Shown in pieces: positions 41,675-57,546 of a stretch of DNA of 64,000 bases. Under the pieces are notes generated by a model, which made no database searches, was not told the DNA's origin, and saw only the letters and a program-made list of their open reading frames with translations. This DNA is from Deltaproteobacteria bacterium. GTDB taxonomy: Bacteria > Myxococcota_A > UBA9160 > SZUA-336. Made by a program: the position numbers and the translations under genes. Location: positions 166,604-230,603 of the forward strand of contig JAJDAJ010000037.1 of the NCBI GenBank assembly GCA_029261925.1. The letters are read 5' to 3'. Each line of letters starts with the position of its first letter. Positions within the stretch are counted from its first letter, which is position 1.

Positions 41675-42625
41675 CTAGACGAAGAGCGAGCTGACCGACT
41701 CCTCGTTGTGGATGCGCCGGATCGCCTCGCCGAGCAGGTGCGAGATGGTCGAGACGCTGATCTTCTCGAGCGGGCCGTCCTGGGCGCGCATCGGGATCGT
41801 GTCGGTCACGATGAGCTGCTCGAGTGACGACTCCTCGATCCGCTTGAGCGCGGGCCCCGAGAGCACGGGGTGGGTGATGGCACCCAGCACGCGCCGCGCC
41901 CCCATGTCCTGGACGGCGTCCGCGGTCTGCGTGAGCGATCCCGCGGTGTCCACGATGTCGTCGACGATGATGGCGGTCTTGTCGCGCACGTCGCCGACGA
42001 TGTGCATGACCTCCGAGACGTTGGCGCGCTCGCGTCGCTTGTCGGCGATCGCCAGGCCGGCGTGCATGCGCTTGGCGAAGGCGCGCGCGCGCTCCACGCC
42101 GCCCGCATCGGGCGAGACCACCACCAGGGGCTCGTCGCGGTCGAGGCGCTCGCGGATGCCGTCGAGCAGCACGGGCATGGCGTAGAGGTTGTCCACCGGG
42201 ATGTCGAAGAAGCCCTGGATCTGGCCCGCGTGCAGGTCCACGCAGAGCAGCCGCTGCGAGCCCGTGGTGGACAGCAGGTCGGCGATCAGCTTCGCGGTGA
42301 TGGGCGAGCGCGGTCGCACCTTGCGGTCCTGGCGGCTGTACCCGTAGTACGGGGTGACCACGGTGATCCGCTTGGCCGACGCGCGCTTGACGGCGTCGAT
42401 CAGGATCAGCAGCTCCATCAGGTTCGTGTTGGCGGGCGCACAGGTCGACTGGATCAGGAACACGTCCATCCCGCGGACGTTTTCCCCCAGCTCCACGCTG
42501 GTCTCGCCGTCGCTGAACTGGCGCACCTCGGCCCGGCCCAGCTCCAGGTCCAGGTAGTCACAGATCTTCTGGGCCAGCGCCGTGTTGGCGTTCCCCGTGA
42601 AGATCTTGATGATGTTGTTGTTCAC
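41675..42625 (-). CDS. prs: Ribose-phosphate pyrophosphokinase
   Basis: IKIFTGNANTALAQKICDYLDLELGRAEVRQFSDGETSVELGENVRGMDVFLIQSTCAPANTNLMELLI; GTG start. Confidence 0.95.
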   Translation of the reverse strand: MNNNIIKIFTGNANTALAQKICDYLDLELGRAEVRQFSDGETSVELGENVRGMDVFLIQSTCAPANTNLMELLILIDAVKRASAKRITVVTPYYGYSRQDRKVRPRSPITAKLIADLLSTTGSQRLLCVDLHAGQIQGFFDIPVDNLYAMPVLLDGIRERLDRDEPLVVVSPDAGGVERARAFAKRMHAGLAIADKRRERANVSEVMHIVGDVRDKTAIIVDDIVDTAGSLTQTADAVQDMGARRVLGAITHPVLSGPALKRIEESSLEQLIVTDTIPMRAQDGPLEKISVSTISHLLGEAIRRIHNEESVSSLFV

Positions 42626-42797: not shown

Positions 42798-45401
42798 TCA
42801 GAACTGGTAGCCGACCCTCATCCCGTAGAAGCGCGGCGGGCCGTACCAGGCGTACGGCGGCGCGCCGAACTCGCGGGGCCCCACCAGGATGTTCTGCTTG
42901 GGGGCAGCGTCCTCGATGTTCTGGATGAAGGCCTCGACCGTCCAGATCTGCTCCGGGCTGCGCCAGATCAGCTTGAAGTCGGTGAGGTGGTAGGCCTCCT
43001 GGAGATCGAACTTCTGGTTGAAGGCGCGGAAGTACGTGTCGTCCTGCCACGAGTACTGGATGCGGGGCGTCAGCGTGCCCCGGTGGCCCAGGGGGATCTC
43101 GTACTCCGCCCAGAGCGTGAACTTCCACTTGGGCGAGCGCGACAGATCGTTGCCCGAGAAGTCGTCGAGGCCGCCGAAGGGCGTGAGCCGTCCGCAGTTG
43201 GCGGGCTGACCGGCGCGGCTGAAGCAGGTGTCCAGGGCCTCGAACGGCCGCGCTCCCGGTGCGTTCTCGGCCGCCAGGTCATCCGCCAGATCGCGCGAAT
43301 CCAGCCGCAGGCGCTCGAAGGTGTTCTCCGCATTCGCCGGGTCCAGCGAGAAGTACTCGCGCGTCTCCGTCTTCAGGAAGGAGACCACCGCCGAGAGCGT
43401 CAGACCGGGGAGCGGCGTGCCGATGGCCTCGAGGTCCCAGCCGTACATCCGCGCATCGGCGTTCTCCGTGCGCAGGGCCAGGCCGTCCAGGACCACCAGC
43501 TGCATGTTGTCGTAGGAGTAGAAGAAGCCCTCCAGGTTCAGCTGCAGGCGCCGGTCGAAGAGCTCCGACTTCGTGCCCACGGCGTAGGCCCAGATCTCCT
43601 CGGGCAGGTACCCGCCGACCGTCCCGGCGCGGAAACCGCCCGACTTGTAGCCGCGGTCCATCTTCGCGTAGAGCAGGTGGTCGCCGCCGAAGGGCCTCCA
43701 GTCGATGCTCGTCCCCCACGGATTGCCGCGGAACGTCGCCTCGCAGGGGACGTTCACCCGGCGCGGTCGCTGCGGCGGGCCGAGGGTGAGGCCGAGACTG
43801 CCGGTGCAGCCCCGGAAGCGGGAGTTGACACCGTCTTCTCCACCCGACGGCACCGTGCGCAGCAGCCAGGTGGACTTCTCGTCCTTGACGAGGCGGCCGC
43901 CCAGCTCGAAGCGCACGTTGTCGGTCACGTGGAACGTCGTGTGCAGCGCGTAGCCGTAGGCCTTGTTGTCGGTGGTCTGCTGGGAGAAGACGCCGTTGTT
44001 CTGCCCCCCGAGCCCCGGGGTCGCCAGGTCACGGCTGGCCCGCTCCCATGCCCAGAAGAAGCCGGCCTGCCAGTCGAAGCGCTCGTCGAAGACGGTCCCG
44101 CCCCACTGCGCCTCGAAGCTGTTCTGCTGGGAGAAGTCGGCCAGGTCGTAGTCGAAGATCGCCCGATCCGTGGCATCGAAGTCCTGGTTGAAGGAGGTCT
44201 CGATCTTCTGCCAGCCGGCGATCAGCTTGAGTCGCGTCTCGCCGAGGCCGGGCAGGCTCGGAACGCTCCAGTCGAGCGCCGACGAGAAGCCCCAGTAGCG
44301 GTTGTCCTGCGCCGACGGAACGTCGAGATAGATCTTGCGCGGGTCGCCGTCCTCGGTCGTCGGCATGGCGATCGCGCCCCGCTCGACCTCCTGGAAGCCC
44401 CGGAAGATGCCGTTCGCGTCGAAGATCGGGGTCCGCTCCCGGTCGCTCTCGGTCCGGTAGCACGCCGCTCCCGCGGGCATGACCGTCGGCACGTTGGCGA
44501 GGCCCGTCTCCGTCCGGGCCGAGCAGGCCACCAGACGGGGGTCCGCGGGCACGATATCGGCCTGGGCCCCGTTGCCGGCCTGGCGGAAGTAGTTGTAGCT
44601 GACCAGCAGGTCCAGGCTGTCCGTGGGCGTGAGCCTGAGGTGGCCGCGCAGACCGAAGTCGTCGTTGTCGAACGGATCCCGGCTGTCGCTCACCAGGACG
44701 TTGTCCAGGTAGCCGTCCCGGTCCTCGTGGTAGACCGCGAGCCGGGCCGCGGCGAACTCGGTCAGCGGCACGTTGACCGCACCCCGGATGCGCACCCGGT
44801 CGTAGTTCCCGAACAGGACGTCGCCGCTGACCTCGTACTCCTGGTGCGGCTTCTTGGTCACCAGGTTGATCCAGCCCGAGGTCGAGTTCTTGCCGCCGCG
44901 CAGACCCTGGGGCCCCCGCTCGACCTTCAGCGTCTCCAGGTCGAAGAACGCCACGCGTGCCGCGGAGGGTCGCGAGTAGCTGATGCCGTCCACGTGGAAG
45001 GCCACCCCCGGCTCGCCCGTCAGCGAGGCGTTCTCGGTGCCCACACCGCGCAGCGTGATGATCGCCGCCGTTCCCTGCTGCCCCACGTGCAGACCCGGCA
45101 CGCTGAACGCCAGCGAGTCGACGTTGACGATGTTCGCGCGATCCAGATCCTCGGCGCTGAACGTCGTGATCGCCTGGGCCTCGTCCTGCACGTCGGTCGC
45201 GTCGATGCGCTCCCCCGTGACCTCGATCGCCTCGATGTCCCGGGGCGGCGCCTCGGCCGGTGAGACGGGTACGGGATCGGCCTCGCCCTGCGGGGCCGCC
45301 TCGGCGTCCTGCGCTCGCGCGGAGGGCATGCCACCCAGTGCGATCGCAGCCGCGAGGACCGGGACCAGGACGGCGGCGCGAAGGGCTCGATTCTTGCGCA
45401 T
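42798..45401 (-). CDS. TonB-dependent receptor (array unit 3)
   Basis: Plug: VTGERIDATDVQDEAQAITTFSAEDLDRANIVNVDSLAFSVPGLHVGQQGTAAIITLRGVGTENASLTGEPGVAFHVDGISYSRPSAARVAFFDLETLKVERGPQGLRGGKNSTSG; C-terminal aromatic GMRVGYQF. Confidence 0.92.
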   Translation of the reverse strand: MRKNRALRAAVLVPVLAAAIALGGMPSARAQDAEAAPQGEADPVPVSPAEAPPRDIEAIEVTGERIDATDVQDEAQAITTFSAEDLDRANIVNVDSLAFSVPGLHVGQQGTAAIITLRGVGTENASLTGEPGVAFHVDGISYSRPSAARVAFFDLETLKVERGPQGLRGGKNSTSGWINLVTKKPHQEYEVSGDVLFGNYDRVRIRGAVNVPLTEFAAARLAVYHEDRDGYLDNVLVSDSRDPFDNDDFGLRGHLRLTPTDSLDLLVSYNYFRQAGNGAQADIVPADPRLVACSARTETGLANVPTVMPAGAACYRTESDRERTPIFDANGIFRGFQEVERGAIAMPTTEDGDPRKIYLDVPSAQDNRYWGFSSALDWSVPSLPGLGETRLKLIAGWQKIETSFNQDFDATDRAIFDYDLADFSQQNSFEAQWGGTVFDERFDWQAGFFWAWERASRDLATPGLGGQNNGVFSQQTTDNKAYGYALHTTFHVTDNVRFELGGRLVKDEKSTWLLRTVPSGGEDGVNSRFRGCTGSLGLTLGPPQRPRRVNVPCEATFRGNPWGTSIDWRPFGGDHLLYAKMDRGYKSGGFRAGTVGGYLPEEIWAYAVGTKSELFDRRLQLNLEGFFYSYDNMQLVVLDGLALRTENADARMYGWDLEAIGTPLPGLTLSAVVSFLKTETREYFSLDPANAENTFERLRLDSRDLADDLAAENAPGARPFEALDTCFSRAGQPANCGRLTPFGGLDDFSGNDLSRSPKWKFTLWAEYEIPLGHRGTLTPRIQYSWQDDTYFRAFNQKFDLQEAYHLTDFKLIWRSPEQIWTVEAFIQNIEDAAPKQNILVGPREFGAPPYAWYGPPRFYGMRVGYQF

Positions 45402-45438
45402 TCGAGGCTCCGGATGGGTCTTCGGGGTCACGTCCCTG

Positions 45439-45473
45439 AAAAAGTGGCCGGGGCCACGGAGGGCCCCGGCCAC
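45439..45473 (-). terminator. Intrinsic terminator/attenuator-like hairpin between unit-3 Cys-rich gene and TBDR
   Basis: Perfect 12-bp arms GTGGCCGGGGCC/GGCCCCGGCCAC, 6-nt loop, followed in transcription direction by TTTTT. Confidence 0.8.
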
Positions 45474-45495
45474 ATTATCACGCTCTCCCGTGGTC

Positions 45496-47550
45496 CTACG
45501 GCACCAGCTGGCAGATCGTGCTGCAGGGACCGTTGTCGTCATTGCCCGCGCCGGCGTCGCACGCCTCACCGGTTTCGACCACGCCGTTCCCGCAGCCGCC
45601 CGGCTGGACCTGCCGGCAGGTGGCCGGTCGGCCGAAGATGCTGGCATTGTCCCGCAGGATGTCCCCGACGTCGCAGCCCGATGGCGGGTTGTCGCCCACG
45701 GCCGTGATCGAGGAGTTGTTGGAGTCGCAGGTCCGGAACAGCGGCCCGCCGAAGATGGCGTCGTTCGTGGCCAGGATGTCGCCGATGTTGACCAGACCAT
45801 CCTCGTTGATGTCGCCGCACTCGCACTCGTCGCCGCGGCCGTCGCCGTCGGCATCCGCGGTGCTATCCCACTCCGACAGCCAGGGGCACAGGTCCCCGGT
45901 GCCCCCCGGCTCGTCCGCGTCGGGCGTGCCGTCGCAGTTCGCGTCGCTGCGCTGGTCGATCCGGTAGTTGATCAGGCCGCAGTCCGAGCCCGGATCTCCA
46001 CTGATCGTGCGCCGCGGGGTGAGCGAGCACTCGGCCTGTGGCTGACCGCGCAGCACGTACAGCGAGGTGCCGCAGCACTGCGGCGCGATATCGCCGTTGG
46101 CGTTGAAGCCGCAGCGCACCTGGTTGCGATGTCCGGGCTCCCGGAAGTCGCAGGTATCGCCCAGGGCGTCGCACTCGCCGCCGCAGTTCCCCGTTCCGGG
46201 GCCCGTGCAGCACGCCGCGGGAGTGCCGCCGGCGGTGCAGGCGGTGTTGAAGGCCGGGTCGTAGCAGCCGACGAAGCGGTTGTTCTCGCACTGGCCCGTG
46301 AGCTGGCCCTCGCGCGCGAACTCCGGATCGGTGTAGAAGCGCGACTGCGCGCCGCCCGTGAAGACCCAGTCGGGCTCGACGTTCTGATCGATGATCCAGC
46401 GGCGCGGCAGCCGGCAGGTCCGGCCGATGATGTCCGGATACGTCGGCTGGGGCGACTGGAAGAGCAACGAGCAGGCGTTGTTGTTCGATGGGTTGAACTC
46501 GTTGCAGCACACGGCCGAGTCGTCGGTGTGGATGCGGAAGTTCGTGCTGTTGCGGCGTGCGGCCGCGACGGCATCGCCGTTGCTGATGGTGCAGGTGCCC
46601 GTGCCGGCGCCCGTGCAGCAGCCCACGGCGAGGCTCTCCGTGCCGCCCTGTCCGTCGGGAACCGACGCCGTGCCGGCGGCGGTGCAGAACAGGCTGTTCA
46701 CGTCCTCTGCGCGGTAGCCGTGGTCCCAGCGCAGGTACGTCTGGGTGCCCGAGCCGTCGTGGTCGGGATGGCTGGCGGGCAGCAGGAAGCGCGTGCCCAT
46801 CGAGGGCAGGGTGCGGATGTTGATGTCGAGGCAGGCCTCGCAGGCAGCCGGGTCCGCGGGGTCGATCGGCGGACAGTCCGCATCGACGTCACAGGACTGG
46901 TTGGAGCGGGTCGACAGCGCGTTGCAGGTCCGCTCCTGCGAGCTGGCCCCGAAGTTGTTGCCCGTGGCCGAGCTCAGCTGCCAGTCGCCGATGCCCGCGA
47001 AAGAGCCATTGCTGAAGGTGCTGATGAACAGCTCGCTGGTATCCGAGGGATCGTCGATGCCGGCGTCGCTGATCGGCAGCTCGACGCGGCAGCCGCCCGC
47101 CGGGCTGCAGACGCCGCCCGAGCACTCGTCCGGGTTCTTCACGTAGCCGCATGCCAGGCCGTCATCGGCCCCGCCCACGCAGGTGGGTCCCTCGGCGGTC
47201 GGCGTGCAGGTGTCGTCCTCGCGAAGCAGCACCTGCCCGGGAACCGGCAGTGCGTTGGTGTCGGTGCCGCAGGACGTGAAGTCCGTCGAGTCGCCGAAGC
47301 TGCCGCGGCTGAAGAAGTAGCTGACGCCCGTCTGGTTGTCCCCGAAGTCGTCGCGAACCCAGCGGAAGTTGTCGGTCGGGATCTCCGTCTTGCGGAAGTC
47401 GGTATTCCGGCCGAGGCCGTACTTGGTGGTCGTGCACGAGCCGCCGCTGCAGTCGAGCAGGAACGGATCCTGCGCCGACGCGTCGCCCGGCGCGGCGAGT
47501 CCGCCGAGCGCCAGGGCGAAGCCCACGGCGACAATGATGAAACGATGCAT
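45496..47550 (-). CDS. Secreted Cys-rich protein with dockerin/EF-hand-like C-terminal repeats (array unit 3)
   Basis: Signal peptide ...GDASAQ; CTTTKYGLG; RIHTDDSAVCC; GDINEDGLVNIGDILATNDAIFG and CDVGDILRDNASIFG; CGNGVVETGEACDAGAGNDDNGPCSTICQLVP. Confidence 0.8.
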   Translation of the reverse strand: MHRFIIVAVGFALALGGLAAPGDASAQDPFLLDCSGGSCTTTKYGLGRNTDFRKTEIPTDNFRWVRDDFGDNQTGVSYFFSRGSFGDSTDFTSCGTDTNALPVPGQVLLREDDTCTPTAEGPTCVGGADDGLACGYVKNPDECSGGVCSPAGGCRVELPISDAGIDDPSDTSELFISTFSNGSFAGIGDWQLSSATGNNFGASSQERTCNALSTRSNQSCDVDADCPPIDPADPAACEACLDINIRTLPSMGTRFLLPASHPDHDGSGTQTYLRWDHGYRAEDVNSLFCTAAGTASVPDGQGGTESLAVGCCTGAGTGTCTISNGDAVAAARRNSTNFRIHTDDSAVCCNEFNPSNNNACSLLFQSPQPTYPDIIGRTCRLPRRWIIDQNVEPDWVFTGGAQSRFYTDPEFAREGQLTGQCENNRFVGCYDPAFNTACTAGGTPAACCTGPGTGNCGGECDALGDTCDFREPGHRNQVRCGFNANGDIAPQCCGTSLYVLRGQPQAECSLTPRRTISGDPGSDCGLINYRIDQRSDANCDGTPDADEPGGTGDLCPWLSEWDSTADADGDGRGDECECGDINEDGLVNIGDILATNDAIFGGPLFRTCDSNNSSITAVGDNPPSGCDVGDILRDNASIFGRPATCRQVQPGGCGNGVVETGEACDAGAGNDDNGPCSTICQLVP

Positions 47551-47605
47551 GCTGTCTCCCTCCTGAGCAGGCGACGGGCCACCGCACACCCGCGCCGTGA
47601 CCGTC

Positions 47606-47636
47606 CCTGGCATGGACTGACAGCGATCATCTCATG
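47606..47636 (-). promoter_or_regulatory. Conserved 31-bp upstream element, unit 3
   Basis: + strand cctggcatggactgacagcgatcatctcatg; 55 bp upstream of the unit-3 start codon; matches elements at 52454 and 57382. Confidence 0.75.
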
Positions 47637-47800
47637 CCCGGGGGAGACCCGACAATCTTTTGTTGCCCCGGCTGGCCCGGGTGGCTCGCAGCGGACCGGC
47701 CGATATGGGGTGCCCGGCACCTCACCCGGACCCCCGGACCCGAGATCCTGAGGCCGGGGGGCGAGGCCAGGCTCACGGCCCAGCGGGCCCGGGGCCGGCC

Positions 47801-47854
47801 GGCCGGCGCGGCCGGCGCGGCCGGCGCGGCCGGCGCGGCCGGCGCGGCCGGCGG
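47801..47854. repeat. 9-bp tandem repeat (GGCCGGCGC) x6, last copy variant
   Basis: Direct reading: five exact copies plus ggccggcgg, abutting the stop codon of the unit-2 TBDR. Confidence 0.95.
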
Positions 47855-50473
47855 TCAGTACTTGAAGCCCAGGCGTGCCCCGAAGAAGCGCGGCGGGCCG
47901 TACCAGCCCAGCGGCGGCGAGCCGAACTCGCGCGGTCCGATCAGGATGTTCGACTTGGGGGCCTCGTCCTCGATGTTCTGCACGAAGACCTCCACCTCCC
48001 AGCGGTCCTCCGGGCTGATCCAGATCAGCTTGGCGTCGGTGAGGTGGTGATCCTCCTGCAGGTCGAATTCTCGGTTGAACGCCCGGAAGTAGGTGTCGTC
48101 CTGCCAGGTGTACTGGACCCGGGGGATCAGCGTGCCGAAGCGCCCGAGCGGGATCTCGTACTCGGCCGAGAAGGTGAACTTCCACTCCGGCGAGCGGGAG
48201 AGCTGGTTGCCGGTGAAGTCATCCAGCCCGTTGCGGTCGCCCAGCAGGCCGCAGGCGATGTCGCCACCCAGCTCGGTGGCCACGCAGAGCTCGCTCTCCT
48301 CGAACGGAAGGAAGCCGAGACCGGACTGGATCGAGGACTCCGACGCCTCCCGTGCCCGGAGTCTGGCGCGCGCGACATTGCTGTCCGCGGCGGCGGGGTC
48401 GATGGAGAAGTAGTCGCGCGTCTCGGTGTTCAGGTAGCTGATCACGGCGCTCAGCATGAGGCCGGGGATGGGGTTGCCCACGGCCTCGAGGTCCCAGCCG
48501 TACATGCGGGCGTCCGTGTTCTCGGTACGCAGCGACAGGCCATCGAGGATCACCAGCTGCATGCCATCGTAGGCGTAGAAGAAGCCCTCGAGGTTGATCT
48601 GCAGGCGGTCGTCGAAGACGTTGGACTTCGAGCCCAGCGCGTAGGCCCAGATCTTCTCGGGGTCGTACTCGCCGACCGTGCCCGCCCGGAAGCCGCCGGA
48701 CTTCGCCCCTCGATCGATCTTGGCGTAGAGCAGGTGGTTCCCGTCGAGGAATCCGAACTCCGGCCGCCAGTCGATCCCCGCACCCCACATGGTGTGGCGC
48801 TCTAGCTTCGAGCAGGGGTCGTTCTCGCGCAGGGGTACGGGCCCGGTGAACGTGCCGCGCGTGCCCAGGTCGCCGGTGCAGCCGCGGAAGGCGCTTCGCG
48901 GGTCATCGGACGAGGGCAGGACCGAGCGCAGCATCCAGGTGCTCTTCTTGTCCTTGATCCAGCGCCCTCCCAGGTTCAGGCGCAGGCTGTCGGTCGCGTG
49001 GAAGGTGCCGTGCAGCGCGGCGCCGTAGGACTTGTTCTCGGTGGTCTGGAAGTTCTGAACCGTGGGCCGCCCCACCGTCAGGGGCGGAACCCCGATGTCG
49101 CGCCGGGCCTGCTCGTGGGAGTAGAAGAAGCTCGACTGCCAGTCGAGCCGCTCGGCGATCTGGCCGCTCCACTGGAGCTCCGAGGAGTACTGGTCGGCCT
49201 CGGCGTCGAGGTCGAAGCTCAGCATGGGGTTGCTCGTGGCGTCGAAGTCCTGGTTGAAGATGTTCACCGTCTTCTGGAACCCGCCGAGCAGCTTGACCCG
49301 CGACTCGCCCAGCAGCGGCAGGGCCGGCGCATCCCAGTCGATCGCCGCCGTCCAGCCCCAGTAGCGGTTGTCCTGGGCGGACGGGGTGTCCACCCAGATC
49401 TTGCGAGCACTTCGATCCTCGACCGCCGGATTGGGGGTGTTCTGGCTGGGAATGAAGGGCGGGACCCGGTTCGGGTCGAAGGACGAGGGAATCACGGTCC
49501 GGAAGCAGGCCGACTGCAGCGGCATGGTCGTGAAGGTACGGCCAAAGCACGCGATGGGGTCCAGGTTCTTCGGCGTGGGCACGTTGTCGGCCTGGGGGCC
49601 GTTGCCGGTCTGCTTGAAGTAGTTCCAGCTCAGCAGCACCTGGACGGTCTCCGCGGGGTTCAGGCGCAGATGCGCGCGCATACCGAAGTCGTCGGCATCG
49701 AACGGGTCCCGGCTGTCACCGAGGAGCTTGTTGTCGAGGTAGCCGTCGCGGTCCTCGTGGAAGAACGCGAGGCGCGTGGCCGCGAACTCGCCCAGGGGAA
49801 TGTTGAGCGAGCCCCGTGCGCGCACGCGATCATAGTTGCCGAAGAGGATGTCGCCCTTCACCTCGTACTCGTCGTGCGGCTTGTTGGTGATCAGGTTGAT
49901 GTGGCCCGACGTCGAGTTCTTGCCGCCCAGCAGGCCCTGGGGGCCGCGCTTGACCTCCAGCGTCTCGAGGTCGAAGAAGGCCACCCGGGCGGCCGACGGG
50001 CGACCGAGATTGATGCCGTCCACGTGGAAGGCCACGCCCGGCTCGCCCGTGAGCGAGGCGTTCTCGGTGCCCACGCCGCGCAGCGTGATGATGGCCGACT
50101 GACCCGACTGTCCCACGTGCAGCCCGGGCACGCTGAAGGCGAGCGAGTCGACGTTGACGATGTTCGCGCGGTCCAGATCCTCGGCCGTGAAGGCGCTGAT
50201 GGCCTGTGCCTCGTCCTGCACGTCGGCCGAGTCGATCCGCTCGCCGGTGATGGCGATCAGCTCCACGTCGCCGGGGGCGGCCTCCAGGGGCTCTACCGGC
50301 TCGGGCGTCGAGGTCTGAGCCGCCTCGCTCTCCCCGGACGGCGCAGCCGCAGGGGCTTCAGGCGTCGAGTCGGCGGCTCCCGCATCCTGGGCGCTGGCGG
50401 GCCCCGCCGCGGCGACACCGAGCAGGAGGCTGCAAGCCAGGGTCAGGAGCGCGGGACCAGGAACGATGCGCAT
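47855..50473 (-). CDS. TonB-dependent receptor (array unit 2)
   Basis: ITGERIDSADVQDEAQAISAFTAEDLDRANIVNVDSLAFSVPGLHVGQSGQSAIITLRGVGTENASLTGEPGVAFHVDGINLGRPSAARVAFFDLETLEVKRGPQGLLGGKNSTSG; ends RLGFKY. Confidence 0.92.
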   Translation of the reverse strand: MRIVPGPALLTLACSLLLGVAAAGPASAQDAGAADSTPEAPAAAPSGESEAAQTSTPEPVEPLEAAPGDVELIAITGERIDSADVQDEAQAISAFTAEDLDRANIVNVDSLAFSVPGLHVGQSGQSAIITLRGVGTENASLTGEPGVAFHVDGINLGRPSAARVAFFDLETLEVKRGPQGLLGGKNSTSGHINLITNKPHDEYEVKGDILFGNYDRVRARGSLNIPLGEFAATRLAFFHEDRDGYLDNKLLGDSRDPFDADDFGMRAHLRLNPAETVQVLLSWNYFKQTGNGPQADNVPTPKNLDPIACFGRTFTTMPLQSACFRTVIPSSFDPNRVPPFIPSQNTPNPAVEDRSARKIWVDTPSAQDNRYWGWTAAIDWDAPALPLLGESRVKLLGGFQKTVNIFNQDFDATSNPMLSFDLDAEADQYSSELQWSGQIAERLDWQSSFFYSHEQARRDIGVPPLTVGRPTVQNFQTTENKSYGAALHGTFHATDSLRLNLGGRWIKDKKSTWMLRSVLPSSDDPRSAFRGCTGDLGTRGTFTGPVPLRENDPCSKLERHTMWGAGIDWRPEFGFLDGNHLLYAKIDRGAKSGGFRAGTVGEYDPEKIWAYALGSKSNVFDDRLQINLEGFFYAYDGMQLVILDGLSLRTENTDARMYGWDLEAVGNPIPGLMLSAVISYLNTETRDYFSIDPAAADSNVARARLRAREASESSIQSGLGFLPFEESELCVATELGGDIACGLLGDRNGLDDFTGNQLSRSPEWKFTFSAEYEIPLGRFGTLIPRVQYTWQDDTYFRAFNREFDLQEDHHLTDAKLIWISPEDRWEVEVFVQNIEDEAPKSNILIGPREFGSPPLGWYGPPRFFGARLGFKY

Positions 50474-50536
50474 GGAAACTCCCACACGGTGGCAAGCTGG
50501 GATGGTCGGCTCCGGACCGCGGGCGTGCCCGGTCCG

Positions 50537-50558
50537 GGAATATTCGCACGAGAATATT
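50537..50558. promoter_or_regulatory. AT-rich inverted repeat between unit-2 genes, candidate operator/promoter
   Basis: gGAATATTCgcacgaGAATATTt; AATATTC...GAATATT arms in an otherwise very GC-rich context, upstream of the TBDR. Confidence 0.4.
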
Positions 50559-50564
50559 TGCATG

Positions 50565-50600
50565 AAAAAGGGGGCCGGGGCCATGACGGCCCCGGCCTCC
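50565..50600 (-). terminator. Intrinsic terminator/attenuator-like hairpin between unit-2 Cys-rich gene and TBDR
   Basis: 10-bp perfect arms GGCCGGGGCC/GGCCCCGGCC followed in transcription direction by TTTTT. Confidence 0.8.
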
Positions 50601-50630
50601 GTTTTCTCGACTCTCTTCGCGCCGGCGGCC

Positions 50631-52397
50631 CTAGGGCACCAGCTGGCAGACCGTGTTGCACGGTCCGTTGTCGTTGTTCGCGGCGCCGTTGTCGCACTCC
50701 TCACCGAACCCGGGGTCCACGCTACCGTCGCCGCAGGTGGCCGGCTTGACGCCCACGCACGTGGTGCTGTTCGGATTGAAGATGCTGCCGTTCGCGGCCA
50801 GGATGTCCTGGATGTTGCAGTTCAGGTCGTTGTTCCCGTCACAGGTCAGGCGGACGATCGCCGGATCGAAGATCGACGCGTTGATCTGGAGGATGTCCGA
50901 GACATTGACGAAGCCGTCTCCGGTCTGGTCGCCGCACTCGCACTCATCGCCGCGTTCACCATCGCCGTCGGCGTCCGCGGCATCGTCCCACTCGCTCAGC
51001 CAGGGGCACTTGTCCACGGGTACGTCGGCCACGCCGTCGCAGTCCTGGTCGGCGCGGTGGTTGATCCCGTAGTTGATGGTCTCGCACTGCATGCCCGGAT
51101 CACCGTTGACCTCGTAGCGCGGCAGCAGCGTGCAGCCCTCGTTGGGCGTGCCGCGGACCACGTACTGCGAGCGGTTGCAGCTGGTCGGAACCGGGATGCC
51201 GTTGCCGTCGGCCAGCGGCCGGATGCGATGACCCGCCTCGGTGACGTCGCAGACGTCCGGCTGCACGCCGGCCGTGCCGGGGTCGGCGTCGAGCGTGGGG
51301 CACGGGTCGGCGCCGCCCAGGACGCAGCCCTGGAAGCGGTTCACCTTGCACACGCCCTTGGTCTGCCCCGGCGCGGTGAAGCTCGGATCCGAGTAGAACG
51401 CGGAGCCAGCGCCACCGGCGAAGATCCAGTCGTTGGTGATCGAGTCGTCGAACTGGAAGCGGCCCGTCTCGGCGCAGGAACGCTCGAGCAGCGCGGGGTA
51501 CTGGGGCGTGCCGGGGTTGATCGCGTTGCAGCTCACGCCGCCGTCAGAGCTCCAGCAGCACACGCCCGAGTCATCGGTGTGCCAGCGGAAGCGCGTCTCC
51601 TTGTCGGCGTCCCAGCGGAGGTAGGTCTGGTTGCCGCTGCCGTCGTACTCCGGATGGCTCGCCGGGAGCAGGTAGCGGGTACCGGTCTGCGGCTGCAGGC
51701 GGATGTTCTCCGGGAAGGCCTGACAGTCGGGGTTGTTCTCGTCGGACGTACCGCTGAAGGCGTTGCCCGTCGCGGCACCCAGGGACCACTGCTGGCCGTT
51801 GAACGCCAGAACGCCGCCCGCCAGCGTGAACACCCAGAGCTCGCTCGAGTCGGCGGGATCGGTGATGCCGCCATCGGTCCGCGGGATCGAGACGCGGCAG
51901 CCGCCATCCTGACCCACCGGCGGCGCGTAGTTGCACGTCGTCGGCGCAACGTCGCCGGCGAGGATGCAGTCGCTCAGGCTCGAGCACGCGGCACCGCCCT
52001 GCGCGCAGGTCCCCGAGGGGCCCTCGCTGGTCGGCGTGCAGTCGTCGCGCTCCTGCAGGATGATCTGGCCGACGAGCGGGAAGTGCCCGCGCTCGGGGCC
52101 GCAGTCCACACCGACCGGGTTCCCGACCTCGGTCCGGCTGAAGAAGTAGCTGATCGCTGGATCGCCCGGCGTGCCCACGTGCGGCCCGAAGTCCGCAGCG
52201 GACGTGGCGAACGACGCGGCCTCGCGCGCGTCGAGACCGTCCAGGTTCCAGCGGAAGTCGGGCTTCGAGCCCATTCCATACTTGGTTGTGGTGCACTCCG
52301 AGCCACCGACGCCGCAGTCGACGCCGACGCCCTCCTGGGCCTGCGCCGACGTCGCGGCAAGGGCCAGGCCGGCCACCATCACAATGAAACGCTTCAT
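50631..52397 (-). CDS. Secreted Cys-rich protein with dockerin/EF-hand-like C-terminal repeats (array unit 2)
   Basis: CTTTKYGMGSKPDFR; TRFRWHTDDSGVCC; NDWIFAGGAGSAFYSDPSF; GDQTGDGFVNVSDILQINASIFD and CNIQDILAANGSIFN; CGDGSVDPGFGEECDNGAANNDNGPCNTVCQLVP. Confidence 0.8.
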   Translation of the reverse strand: MKRFIVMVAGLALAATSAQAQEGVGVDCGVGGSECTTTKYGMGSKPDFRWNLDGLDAREAASFATSAADFGPHVGTPGDPAISYFFSRTEVGNPVGVDCGPERGHFPLVGQIILQERDDCTPTSEGPSGTCAQGGAACSSLSDCILAGDVAPTTCNYAPPVGQDGGCRVSIPRTDGGITDPADSSELWVFTLAGGVLAFNGQQWSLGAATGNAFSGTSDENNPDCQAFPENIRLQPQTGTRYLLPASHPEYDGSGNQTYLRWDADKETRFRWHTDDSGVCCWSSDGGVSCNAINPGTPQYPALLERSCAETGRFQFDDSITNDWIFAGGAGSAFYSDPSFTAPGQTKGVCKVNRFQGCVLGGADPCPTLDADPGTAGVQPDVCDVTEAGHRIRPLADGNGIPVPTSCNRSQYVVRGTPNEGCTLLPRYEVNGDPGMQCETINYGINHRADQDCDGVADVPVDKCPWLSEWDDAADADGDGERGDECECGDQTGDGFVNVSDILQINASIFDPAIVRLTCDGNNDLNCNIQDILAANGSIFNPNSTTCVGVKPATCGDGSVDPGFGEECDNGAANNDNGPCNTVCQLVP

Positions 52398-52453
52398 CTG
52401 TCTCCCTCCTGAGCAGCGCTGGCCCGCGGGGCGCACTCGTACCCTGCTTCAGC

Positions 52454-52484
52454 ACTGGCATGGACCGTCAGCAATCATTTCACG
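52454..52484 (-). promoter_or_regulatory. Conserved 31-bp upstream element, unit 2
   Basis: + strand actggcatggaccgtcagcaatcatttcacg; 56 bp upstream of start codon. Confidence 0.7.
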
Positions 52485-52838
52485 GGTGTGGGGCCCCGCA
52501 CAACGGAAATCCGCAGACCGGGTCCGGATTTCGCCGCTTTTCGGGGGTTTTCCACCTCTCCAGGGAGCAACTCGGCCGCGCCTCTCCCTGGCATCCCGGC
52601 CCAGGGGCCGGGCGACCGGGCCGGGCCGGAACGGCCCAGCCCCGGGTCATCTCCGCGGCTCCGGGATCTCCCGGCGAGGCGCAGCGTCCACCTCGCCCCT
52701 CTGCTTCAGCCGCGCGCCCGTCCCCCGGCGTCGGACCCCGAGGCGACGGGTGGCCGCATCCGGGCCCGGGCCCCAGCGGGGGCCCCAGGCGGCCGTTCCG
52801 ATCGGGGCCGCGCGAACGCCGCGCAGGACGCGTGCAGG

Positions 52839-55460
52839 TCAGTAGTTGAAGCCGACGCGGAAGCCGAAGAAGCGCGGTGGACCCCACCAGGCCAGGGGCG
52901 GCGACTTGAACTCCTGGGGCGCGACCAGGACGTTCATCTTGGGAGCCTCGTTCTCGATGTTGAGCACGAAGGCCTCGGCCTCCCAGCGGCCCTCGGGGCT
53001 GCGCCAGACCAGCTTGGCGTCGGTCTGGTGGAAGTCTTCCTGCAGGTCGAAGCTCTGGTTGAAGGCGCGGAAGTAGGTGTCGTCCTGCCACACGTACTGT
53101 ATGCGCGGCGTCAGCGTGCCCCAGCGACCGAGCGGGATCTCGTACTCGGCCCAAACGTTGAACTTCCACTCCGGGGAGCGCGAGAGCTGGTTACCGCTGA
53201 AATCGAACAGGCCGTTCGCGTCGCCCAGGTCGCCACAGCGAAAATTCGGCTGCCCGAGCGGACCGATGCATGCCGTCTTGTCCGCGTAGACGACGTTCCT
53301 GCCCTCGAGCTGCTCGATGGTGGTCTGCTCCAGGGCCTCCAGCTGGCTGAAGCACGACGAATCGGACGCACACGAGGGATCCAGGGAGAAGTAGTCGATC
53401 GTCTCCGTCTTCAGGAACGAGACCGTGGCGGAGAGCGTCAGTCCGGGAATCGGTGTGGCCAGGGCCTCGAGGTCGACGCCGTGCATGCGCGCGTCGGTGT
53501 TCTCTGTGCGCAGCGCCAGCCCGTCGAGGACCACGATCTGCAGGTCCTCGTAGGCGTAGAAGAAGCCCTCGAGGTTGAGGCGCAGCCGACCGCTGAACAT
53601 CTCGGACTTGGAGCCGAGCGCGTAGGCCCAGATCTTCTCGGGCACGTACTCACCGACGTTGCCCGCCCGGAACCCGCCGCTCTTGAAACCGCGATCGATG
53701 CTCCCGTAGAGCAGGTGATCCCCGCCGAAGGGGCGCCAGTCGAGCTTGGCGCCCCAGGTCTGGCCGCGGAAGGTCAGCGAGCACTCCGGATTGTGCTTGG
53801 CGGGGACGATCCGGTTGCCCGGCAGCTGGGCGACCCCCAGCTTGCCGATGCAGCCCCGGAACTTGGCCTCGGGGTCATTGTTCGAGATGATGTTGCGCAG
53901 GATCTGGGTCTTCTTGCGATCCTTGATCCAGCGACCGCCCAGGGCAAGCCGCACGTTGTCACTGACGTGGTAGGTGCCGTGCAGGGCCGCGCCGTAGGAC
54001 TTGTTGTCGGTGGTCTGCTTGGACTCGATGCCCTGATCCTGTCCCTGCAGCTCGCTGGCGCTCAGACCCGGCGTGGCGACGTCGCGCAGCCCCTGCTCGT
54101 GCGCGTAGAACAGGCTGCTCTGCCAGTCCAGACGCTCCGCGAGCCTGCCGCTCCACTGCAGCTCGCTGGAGTACTGGCTGGTGTCGTCGTCGAGGTTGAA
54201 CGAGACGATGTCGGCGTCCGTGGCGTCGAAGTCCTGCTCGAAGATGTTCGTGGTGCGGCGGAAGCCGCCGAGCAGCTTCAGCCGCGTCTCCCCCAGCAGG
54301 GGCAGGGTCGGAACGCTCCAGTCGATCGTCGAGGTCCAGCCCCAGTAGCGATTGTCCTGGCCCGAGGGGGTGTCCACGAAGACCTTCCGGGGGTCCCCCT
54401 CCTCGCTCGCGGGGACGAAGACGAACTCGCGCACCTCCCGGATCTGTCCGTTGATCAGCCGGAAGCTCCTCACCTCCCGCTGGGCGCAGGCGCCGACGAA
54501 CGGGATCTGGCTGTTCGCGGGTAGACCCTGGGCGACGCGGGCCTGCTGGCAGGCCTGCGTGAAGGCCGGGTTGTTGACGTCGACCGACGTGCCCGCCTCG
54601 GGCACGGGATCCGCCTGCGGGCCGTTGCCCTTCTGCCGGAACCAGTCGTAGCTCAGCGTGATGTCCAGCGAATCCGTCGGCGTCAGGCGCAGGTGCCCGC
54701 GGATCCCGAAATCCTCCGCGTCGAAGGGATCGCGGCTGTCGCTCACGGACGGGTTATCGAGGTAGCCGTCCCGGTCCTCGTAGAACATGGCGAAGCGCGT
54801 GGCGGCGTACTCGCTGAGCGGGAGATTGAGCGCGGAGCGGACCCGCACCCGGTCGTAGTTCCCGAAGAGCACGTCGGTGCTCACCTCGTACTCGTCGTGC
54901 GGCTTCTTGGTGACGAGGTTGATCGAGCCCGAGGTCGAGTTCTTGCCGCCGAGCAGGCCCTGCGGACCCCGCTTGACGTCGAGCGTCTCCAGATCGAAGA
55001 AGGCGATGCGGGCCGCGGCCGGCCGCCCCACGTTGATGCCGTCGATGTGAAAGGCGACGCCGGGCTCGCCGGTGATCGAGGAGTTCTCCGTGCCGATGCC
55101 GCGCAGCGTGATGATCGCGGCCTGGCCCGCCTGGCCCACGTGCAGCCCCGGCACGCTGAAGGCGAGCGAGTCGACGCTGGTGATGTTTGCGCGGTCGAGA
55201 TCCTCCGCGCTGAAGGCCGTGATGGCCTGGGCCTCGTCCTGCACGTCGGTCGCGTCGATGCGCTCGCCCGTCACGCTGATCGACTCCACGTCGACCGGCG
55301 CCGCCTCGATCTCGGGCGCGGGCTCCGCCACCTCCACCTCGCCCGGCACCGTCCCGGCGTCCTCGGCTCCGGCTTCCTGCGCGGACGGCCGCAGGGGCAG
55401 CAGCGCGAGCGCCGCGATCAGAACGAGGGAGGGGGCTGCGGGGCGGGAAACGAGGCGCAT
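52839..55460 (-). CDS. TonB-dependent receptor (array unit 1)
   Basis: VTGERIDATDVQDEAQAITAFSAEDLDRANITSVDSLAFSVPGLHVGQAGQAAIITLRGIGTENSSITGEPGVAFHIDGINVGRPAAARIAFFDLETLDVKRGPQGLLGGKNSTSG; ends RVGFNY. Confidence 0.92.
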   Translation of the reverse strand: MRLVSRPAAPSLVLIAALALLPLRPSAQEAGAEDAGTVPGEVEVAEPAPEIEAAPVDVESISVTGERIDATDVQDEAQAITAFSAEDLDRANITSVDSLAFSVPGLHVGQAGQAAIITLRGIGTENSSITGEPGVAFHIDGINVGRPAAARIAFFDLETLDVKRGPQGLLGGKNSTSGSINLVTKKPHDEYEVSTDVLFGNYDRVRVRSALNLPLSEYAATRFAMFYEDRDGYLDNPSVSDSRDPFDAEDFGIRGHLRLTPTDSLDITLSYDWFRQKGNGPQADPVPEAGTSVDVNNPAFTQACQQARVAQGLPANSQIPFVGACAQREVRSFRLINGQIREVREFVFVPASEEGDPRKVFVDTPSGQDNRYWGWTSTIDWSVPTLPLLGETRLKLLGGFRRTTNIFEQDFDATDADIVSFNLDDDTSQYSSELQWSGRLAERLDWQSSLFYAHEQGLRDVATPGLSASELQGQDQGIESKQTTDNKSYGAALHGTYHVSDNVRLALGGRWIKDRKKTQILRNIISNNDPEAKFRGCIGKLGVAQLPGNRIVPAKHNPECSLTFRGQTWGAKLDWRPFGGDHLLYGSIDRGFKSGGFRAGNVGEYVPEKIWAYALGSKSEMFSGRLRLNLEGFFYAYEDLQIVVLDGLALRTENTDARMHGVDLEALATPIPGLTLSATVSFLKTETIDYFSLDPSCASDSSCFSQLEALEQTTIEQLEGRNVVYADKTACIGPLGQPNFRCGDLGDANGLFDFSGNQLSRSPEWKFNVWAEYEIPLGRWGTLTPRIQYVWQDDTYFRAFNQSFDLQEDFHQTDAKLVWRSPEGRWEAEAFVLNIENEAPKMNVLVAPQEFKSPPLAWWGPPRFFGFRVGFNY

Positions 55461-55490
55461 CGTTGGTCTCGCTGGCTGTGCAATGAGGCC

Positions 55491-55520
55491 GGGGGCCGGG
55501 ACCGTGAGGTCCCAGCCCCC
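55491..55520 (-). other. GC-rich hairpin between unit-1 Cys-rich gene and TBDR (no T-tract)
   Basis: GGGGGCcGGGACC-gtga-GGTCCCaGCCCCC; positional equivalent of the 45439 and 50565 terminators but lacking a U-tract. Confidence 0.6.
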
Positions 55521-55550
55521 GACGGTTGCTGGAAGTTCCTGGATTCTCTC

Positions 55551-57326
55551 TTACGGTGCGACCGGCAGTGGCTGCACCTGGCGGCAGGTCGAGCTGCCCG
55601 GGACGAAGATCTCCAGGTTCGCGGCGAGGATGTCGCCGACATCGCAGCCCGCGTCGCCGGTGGCGTCGCAGAGCGTGCGGCCCGGCTCGATGTCGAAGAT
55701 CGAGGCGTTGGTGAACAGGATGTCCGCCACGTCGACGGTGCCCGAGAGTGTGCTGTCGCCGCACTCGCACTCGTCCCCCCGGCACAGGGGCCCGGGGCAG
55801 TCGCCGTCGGTGTCGGCCGTCTCGTCGAAGTCGGTGACGAACGGGCAGAGATCATCCGGGTTGTCGATCACGCCGTCGCAGTCCTGGTCCTTGCGCGTAT
55901 TGACCCCGAAGTTGAGGACCTCGCAGGTCGGACCTGGATCGCCGTTGACGGTGTACCGCGGATTGATCGAGCAGCCCACGTTCGGCGTGCCGCGGAAGAC
56001 GTAGCCACTCGCGGCGCAGACGGTGGTGTTGGGATCGCCGTTCGACAGCGCCGGGGGGCGGATGCGGTGGGCGATCTCCCGGAAGTCGCAGGCTCCGCCC
56101 GGCGCCACGCAGGCGTCGGAGAGGCCCAGATCCGAGAAGGCCGCACAGTCGGCCGTGCTCGCGCACGGAACCGCCCGCACCAGGTCGAAGCTGGCCTCGC
56201 AGTAGGTCGCGGCGCACTCGGTGCCGCTGACCGTGCAGGAGACTGCGCCCTGCTCCTCGCAGCGGCCCTGCTCGACGTCCGTCGGCACGTAGTGGGGATC
56301 CGAGTAGAACGCGGATCCCTGACCGTCATCGAAGATCCAGTCGTTGGTCTCGTTGGTGTCCTGGAAGATCTGGCCGTCGGCGCAGGTCCGCTTGAGCAGA
56401 TCCGGGTACTCGGGCGTACCCACGGCCAGCAGGCCGCAGACGTCGCCCGGCGCCGAAGTGCAGCAGATCGCGGTGTCGTCGGTGTGGATCCGCCAGCGGG
56501 TGTCCGGGTGATTGTCCCAGCGGAGATACGTGGGGGCCTCACCGTCGGCGTTCAGCTCGGCGAAGTCCGGGTGAGTGTTGGGCAGCAGGTAGCGCGTGCC
56601 CGACTGGGGCTCGGCCTTGACGATGTCCGGGTCGCACGCCTCGTCGTGCAGGCCCTCGATCGACCCGCCACCGATGGTGTTCCCGGTCGCTGCGGTCAGC
56701 GAGAAGGACGATCCGGCGATGACACCCGAGGCGCGCGAGGGGATCAGCAGCTCGCTCACGTTTTCCAGGTCCCACTGACAGATATCGGTTTCGTTGCCTC
56801 CGGTGCGGCAATCCGCGTCGGAGGTGCAGGCGCCCCCGAAGTCCTGACAGGTGCCGGCAGTACCCACGGCATCGATGGTCCCCTTGCCGCCGTCGCTCAG
56901 CGGGATCGAGACACGACAGCCGCCGGCCACGCCGCCGTTGGCCGCGTCATCGGGCCCGAAGGAGACCGGGACGCAGTCAGTCTGCTCTTCCAGGATGATC
57001 TGGCCCGGGACGACGCTCCAGTCGTTGGGCTTTCCGCACGGCGCCAGGAATCCCGAGCCGGGGGCCAGGGTCACGATATAGCTCGATCCCCCGATGTCGG
57101 GGCCGAAGGCGCTCGCGTCGGTCGCGAACGGGTCCAGATCCTCGATGTTGTTCGCCAGCTTGGGCAGGAAGCGGTTCATCGAAGCGATGTCCATCCCGTC
57201 GAGGCCGTACTTGGTCCTCGAACAGGGCTGGGCATCGCAATCCACCCCGACCCCGATCTGGGCCTGGACCTGCGCCGCCGCGGCGGCCATCACGAGGCCC
57301 AGTGTGAAAACAATCAGACGCTGCAT
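55551..57326 (-). CDS. Secreted Cys-rich protein with dockerin/EF-hand-like C-terminal repeats (array unit 1)
   Basis: CSRTKYGLDG; TRWRIHTDDTAICC; NDWIFDDGQGSAFYSDPHY; GDSTLSGTVDVADILFTNASIFD and CDVGDILAANLEIFV. Confidence 0.8.
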   Translation of the reverse strand: MQRLIVFTLGLVMAAAAAQVQAQIGVGVDCDAQPCSRTKYGLDGMDIASMNRFLPKLANNIEDLDPFATDASAFGPDIGGSSYIVTLAPGSGFLAPCGKPNDWSVVPGQIILEEQTDCVPVSFGPDDAANGGVAGGCRVSIPLSDGGKGTIDAVGTAGTCQDFGGACTSDADCRTGGNETDICQWDLENVSELLIPSRASGVIAGSSFSLTAATGNTIGGGSIEGLHDEACDPDIVKAEPQSGTRYLLPNTHPDFAELNADGEAPTYLRWDNHPDTRWRIHTDDTAICCTSAPGDVCGLLAVGTPEYPDLLKRTCADGQIFQDTNETNDWIFDDGQGSAFYSDPHYVPTDVEQGRCEEQGAVSCTVSGTECAATYCEASFDLVRAVPCASTADCAAFSDLGLSDACVAPGGACDFREIAHRIRPPALSNGDPNTTVCAASGYVFRGTPNVGCSINPRYTVNGDPGPTCEVLNFGVNTRKDQDCDGVIDNPDDLCPFVTDFDETADTDGDCPGPLCRGDECECGDSTLSGTVDVADILFTNASIFDIEPGRTLCDATGDAGCDVGDILAANLEIFVPGSSTCRQVQPLPVAP

Positions 57327-57381
57327 GCTCTCTCCCTCCTGAATGGCGCTGGGCGGCCACACACCCGGGCGGCGGCCCACG

Positions 57382-57412
57382 CCTGGCATGAACTGACAGT
57401 CATCATCTCATG
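57382..57412 (-). promoter_or_regulatory. Conserved 31-bp upstream element, unit 1
   Basis: + strand cctggcatgaactgacagtcatcatctcatg; 55 bp upstream of start codon; 28/31 identical to the unit-3 copy. Confidence 0.75.
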
Positions 57413-57471: not shown

Positions 57472-57546
57472 TGGTTGGGGCGGCAGGATTCGAACCTGCG
57501 ATCTACGGGTTCAAAGCCCGTTGCCTTACCGCTTGGCCACGCCCCA
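57472..57546 (-). tRNA. tRNA-Gln (anticodon TTG), CCA encoded
   Basis: Minus: TGGGGCGTGGCCAAGCGGTAAGGCAACGGGCTTTGAACCCGTAGATCGCAGGTTCGAATCCTGCCGCCCCAACCA; 7-bp acceptor TGGGGCG/CGCCCCA, anticodon loop CTTTGAA, T-loop GGTTCGAATCC. Confidence 0.95.

Follow-up and report, generated by a model that had tools for sequence, protein, structure and literature searches.

Tandem TonB-dependent receptor genes and their secreted, cysteine-rich, dockerin-like neighbours: a candidate family of extracellular partners dedicated to uptake

Within the window (the whole stretch of 64,000 nucleotides analysed), three genes for secreted cysteine-rich proteins alternate with three genes for TonB-dependent receptors (TBDRs), which raises the question of whether each receptor has its own extracellular partner and of what such a pair would do for the cell. 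The answer proposed here is a new family of extracellular partners, each dedicated to a TBDR, that would aid uptake, probably by capture of the substrate, and we consider the balance for and against this proposal as a whole to be even.

The tandem array and its two components

As shown in Table 1, the array consists of three co-directional units of partner and TBDR, the six reading frames lying on the minus strand with the starts and stops given in the preliminary description, and it is surrounded by housekeeping genes. A 28-bp element was detected 57 bp upstream of the start codon of all three partner genes, with no match in 100 shuffles, and its conservation suggests that each window unit may have its own promoter/operator. 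As a mark of a genome-wide regulon the element was discarded, being present only at these three units in the 600 kb of the genome read, and a riboswitch in the array was also discarded, as the Rfam search gave only the tRNA and one match below threshold.

Table 1. Coordinates of the array, its upstream elements and its borders in the window
Feature	Position	Strand	Description
Partner 1	55551..57326	-	Secreted Cys-rich protein, 591 aa; TSP3 + dockerin-like C-terminal module at about 480-582; 0 Pfam matches
TBDR 1	52839..55460	-	873 aa; PF07715 (E=5.8e-13) and PF00593 (E=4.7e-24), both above cut-off
Partner 2	50631..52397	-	588 aa; TSP3 + dockerin-like module, then Cys-rich tail
TBDR 2	47855..50473	-	872 aa; PF07715 and PF00593 above cut-off
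Partner 3	45496..47550	-	684 aa; TSP3 + dockerin-like module, then Cys-rich tail
TBDR 3	42798..45401	-	867 aa; PF07715 and PF00593 above cut-off
28-bp upstream element, unit 1 (putative promoter/operator)	57383..57410	-	3 matches vs 0 in 100 shuffles
28-bp upstream element, unit 2	52455..52482	-	Same comparison with shuffles
28-bp upstream element, unit 3	47607..47634	-	Same comparison with shuffles
tRNA-Gln(TTG)	57472..57546	-	One insertion border; immediately before prs in relatives
prs	41675..42625	-	Other insertion border; in the same-genus genome G001 it starts 52 bp past tRNA-Gln

In the Pfam search the three TBDRs of the window matched the Plug (PF07715) and barrel (PF00593) families above the curated cut-offs, with one further sub-threshold porin match and no CarboxypepD_reg or N-terminal extension domain detected. 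A TonB-box-like stretch precedes the motif DVQDEAQ in the alignment. The three proteins are 62-63% identical overall, in such a way that the plug stretch reaches 85-87% while the barrel segments lie at about 50-73%, bearing out the earlier claim of a conserved plug and a diverged barrel. Because the differences at four-fold-degenerate sites are about equal in both parts (mostly 0.35-0.55), recent gene conversion was rejected as the source of the conserved plug, which is instead attributed to selection on an old array.

Each partner begins with a signal peptide, followed by a Cys-rich domain (the two together spanning 342-535 residues) and a module of around 100 residues; most copies end in a short Cys-rich tail, in which DUF4215 was matched in 7 of the 14 paralogues. 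Their sizes range from 459 to 697 aa, and those of the window keep the common architecture at 39-47% identity, so the three are indeed diverged proteins on one plan, as first described. The signal peptides of the 14 paralogues have no lipobox, as judged by eye and by a simple motif scan. Of the 14 full-length paralogues, 11 have an even number of cysteines, or 13 once the cysteines of the signal peptide are excluded, the pattern to be expected if disulphide pairing is complete outside the cytoplasm. The genome encodes a type II secretion (T2SS) secretin, GspD, scoring over the cut-off, which is a possible secretion route for the partner. Neither single sequences nor a 14-sequence profile linked the N-terminal domain to a Pfam or NCBIfam family above threshold or to a PDB relative, and no enzyme fold was recognised in the protein; at the level of sequence, the partner family has no counterpart in these three libraries. 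AlphaFold runs on three-sequence alignments of partner and TBDR gave pLDDT values of 26-27, too low for either model to be used.

The label "dockerin-like" was correct, as the module comprises one thrombospondin type 3 (TSP3) repeat and a two-loop dockerin-like domain. PF00404 was matched by 19 of 31 modules at E<=0.1 (lowest E-value 1.1e-6), the one member displayed in full falling just short of the gathering cut-off. The two Ca-binding F-hand repeats of type I dockerins were recognised through these matches, and a weak match to PDB dockerins was also found. Around 75 matches to the module were detected in the genome (for instance L094:7409-7711, L099:9839-10141 and L107:9812-10111), and in 27 of 31 non-partner examples the module ends at most 13 residues from the C-terminus. 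The non-partner carriers include subtilases (3/31), one reprolysin and many proteins of no assigned family. Elsewhere in the class, 21 genomes contain weaker relatives of the module, with the highest number in G011 (15), and in most examples read these are C-terminal too. The most fitting reading is of a generic C-terminal module that tens of secreted proteins carry and that is not peculiar to the partners.

The abundance and terminal position of these modules would suit a scaffold on which partners and tens of other secreted proteins dock, with the TBDRs taking up the products of the assembly. A precedent is the "planctosome" proposed in Planctomycetes (PMC6461901), in which TSP3 occurs with cohesin/dockerin beyond cellulosomes; the likeness lies in secreted proteins that bear dockerin-like and TSP3 modules and are not concerned with cellulose degradation, and the difference in that here no cohesin was detected and the module is carried by a TBDR partner. 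Cohesin (PF00963) gave no match at E<=1 in the assembly, and classical cellulosome-type docking was rejected, the genome having no cohesin-bearing scaffoldin by this search. Taking also into account how few module proteins carry hydrolase domains (the subtilases and the reprolysin), we regard such a scaffold as very unlikely. A broader version, in which a disulphide-bonded superfamily of TBDR partners docks by the TSP3-dockerin module in a cohesin-free surface assembly that feeds radiated cognate TonB importers, is still improbable in our view.

Paired copies in the genome and their co-divergence

The assembly searched (5.5 Mb in 111 contigs, 95% complete, 5% contamination) contains 16 TBDRs of the subfamily at 12 loci, with bit scores of 850-1510 for its own copies versus around 200 for the best relatives in the class. 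With genes called by a purpose-built codon-usage caller, a co-directional partner-type gene lies beside 15 of the 16, the remaining TBDR being on a 4.7-kb contig, and adjacency is kept at 11 of the 12 loci. The commonest order is partner, then TBDR; it is reversed at C52, a single partner adjoins two TBDRs at C91, and C85 has the order TBDR-TBDR-partner, with a remote partner identified by its module and position and not by the partner profile. At C73 (L088:6069-12945) a TBDR has a co-directional partner on either side, the two partners being close paralogues. Two tandem partners with no adjacent TBDR, one of them with its dockerin-like domain partly lost, were found at 107-110 kb of C37 (L080:7393-10743), which would allow for partners that work on their own or from a distance. 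Contamination of the bin was judged an unlikely source of these genes, since the prs of the window is 84% identical to that of the same-genus genome, the next closest being those of same-family genomes, and related modules are also present in other members of the taxonomic family.

Partner and TBDR distances are correlated over 12 pairs (Mantel r=0.85, permutation p<5e-5), and the correlation persists (r=0.83) when two of the three window pairs and the remote C85 pair are removed. The two trees have 6 of 9 splits in common, W1+W2+W3, C11+C91, C59+C70 and C73+C5 among them, versus a maximum of 4 under permutation (p<5e-5). Partners diverge faster, with around 30% identity between clades compared to around 55-60% in the TBDRs. 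The distance correlation and the common splits support that the pair evolved as one unit, and the co-divergence shows joint duplication and long-term pairing. It is also expected from joint duplication with no physical contact.

Import, export or independent action of the partner

In the proposed mechanism each unit would be a single functional module, formed by a TBDR and its dedicated disulphide-rich extracellular partner with a Ca2+ module. The partner would be exported by Sec and would then cross the outer membrane, possibly through the T2SS, and at or just outside the cell surface it would bind the substrate and present it to its own TBDR, a contact and a capture that we infer; the TBDR would then import the presented substrate with TonB energy. 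Retention of the partner at the surface through its C-terminal module is a guess. The units have multiplied and dispersed within one lineage, and would now probably serve different small or medium-sized organic substrates, a class that we likewise infer.

The preliminary description assigned no substrate, and this still holds, but other copies sit among catabolic genes that are invisible from the window alone. At 8 of the 11 TBDR loci outside the window the neighbourhood contains short-chain dehydrogenase (SDR), amidohydrolase, acyl-CoA dehydrogenase, CoA-transferase or P450-type genes. Among 79 neighbours at nine of the non-window loci we counted 9 SDRs, 11 amidohydrolases, 5 acyl-CoA dehydrogenases and 3 CoA-transferases, versus 3 SDRs, 8 amidohydrolases and 2 acyl-CoA dehydrogenases among 79 control neighbours of module-only genes, a modest enrichment and a hint only, since genes of these kinds abound in the genome and members of one cluster do not count independently. 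The closest outside TBDRs likewise have catabolic neighbours, and the two sphingomonad regions read contain such genes but no secreted partner. The neighbours of the other units and this sphingomonad context weakly suggest small organic substrates. A sphingomonad TBDR, DdvT, imports a lignin-derived aromatic (PMC6874591); the TBDRs studied here resemble catabolic receptors of this type in their neighbourhood and in their 23-30% identity to sphingomonad TBDRs, and differ from them in the secreted partner, which the two regions read do not have.

Given that the nearest outside TBDRs adjoin catabolic genes with no such partner, and that the nearest TBDRs of the class (G011 and G070) also have none beside them, the receptors might import ordinary small organics alone, the partner being a co-regulated extracellular enzyme or binding protein for the same substrate that makes no contact with them. 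We consider this unlikely, since the tight co-divergence over the 12 pairs and the matched radiation exceed what co-regulation needs, and since no enzyme fold was recognised.

The same co-divergence and the strict pairing suit equally well a cargo and its exporter. In Myxococcus xanthus, PopC, a cargo of about 50 kDa, is secreted in a TonB-dependent manner through Oar (PMC11658791), and the partners, similar in size at 459-697 aa, could be exported by their TBDRs in the same way and act away from the cell. Against this, the genome has a T2SS secretin, tens of secreted proteins bear the same C-terminal module with no adjacent TBDR in the loci read, and catabolic neighbours suit import. Oar carries a CarboxypepD_reg domain, and none was found by Pfam in the window TBDRs. 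In the Oar/PopC system, as here, a TBDR is tied to a secreted protein, by function there and by gene pairing here; unlike PopC, the partner is not a subtilase, no Oar-type N-terminal domain was detected, and each TBDR has its own paralogous partner. Export through the TBDR is quite unlikely in our judgement, and helper-assisted import is favoured both over it and over an independently acting partner.

To our knowledge, known TBDR-partner systems rest on few partner families, namely SusD, BtuG, TbpB-type lipoproteins and hemophores. The initial proposal of paralogous receptor-partner pairs stands, the pairs being real, present beyond the window, co-diverged and adjacent at nearly all loci, but not the SusD- or hemophore-like nature of the partner, which has no SusD- or HasA-type family match and no lipobox. 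As in the SusC/SusD and BtuB/BtuG systems of Bacteroidota (PMC11658791, PMC10404256), a gene for a dedicated extracellular partner adjoins the TBDR gene and many paralogous pairs coexist in one genome; by contrast, the partner here matches no SusD or BtuG by Pfam or NCBIfam, has no lipobox in its 14 paralogues, is disulphide-rich and carries a TSP3-dockerin module, and the N-terminal CarboxypepD_reg-like domain of SusC was not detected in the window TBDRs. With HasA/HasR and HphA/HphR (PMC8560813) the units have in common a two-component receptor made of a secreted soluble protein and a TBDR, but no hemophore family was matched by the partner in Pfam, NCBIfam or PDB, the paralogous pairs are many, and no heme gene was recognised beside the units read. 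The units most probably function in the manner of other two-component TBDR uptake systems, but those defining features of the SusCD and hemophore families that could be tested are absent here.

That a partner family without recognisable relatives radiated with its receptors in one lineage provides about a dozen natural matched pairs, which make pair specificity, and import with the partner versus export of it, directly testable by partner swaps. In turn, a dockerin module on tens of secreted proteins of a cohesin-free genome raises the question of what a dockerin binds where there is no cohesin.

Insertion sites and distribution

The genes ispE, tRNA-Gln, prs and rplY directly adjoin one another in the same-genus genome and in about 20 further relatives. 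From tRNA-Gln to prs the distance is around 52 bp in G001, and it is exactly between these two genes that the 14.8-kb array sits in the source genome. Another unit (C59, L086:7405-11785) splits argJ from a phosphoglycerate-mutase-like gene (pgm); these are separated by 2-3 bp in G009, G007 and G006, and are neighbours as well in G003 and, more widely spaced, in G008. Taken together, the two sites indicate at least two insertions of units into conserved junctions. A tRNA-targeted integrative element found no support, as no second 3' end of tRNA-Gln was found in the window and no gene besides the array was called between tRNA-Gln and prs.

In the class (90 further genomes) and in a draw of 378 genomes from the phylum (best four candidates per genome scored) the profile of the partner N-terminal domain gave no match, the full-length profile gave none in 59 relatives, including one same-genus genome (89% complete), and no match to the partner was found on plasmids. 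For the TBDR, a pattern scan of the 84,980 species of GTDB r220, which required exact matches to two short peptides and so misses remoter relatives, returned one relative, from Novosphingobium (29% identical), and no close one; the closest TBDRs outside the genome are those of sphingomonads (on plasmids), with 23-30% identity. Judged from the available genomes, the system looks like a lineage-specific innovation, which unsampled relatives may also carry.

One contig (C4:1-4876, L034) reads as the C-terminus of a partner, a TBDR and the N-terminus of a partner, and its ends and that of another contig (C84:1-950, L081) break partner genes at the same residue, suggesting that both may derive from a second tandem array that collapsed and was broken up in assembly.
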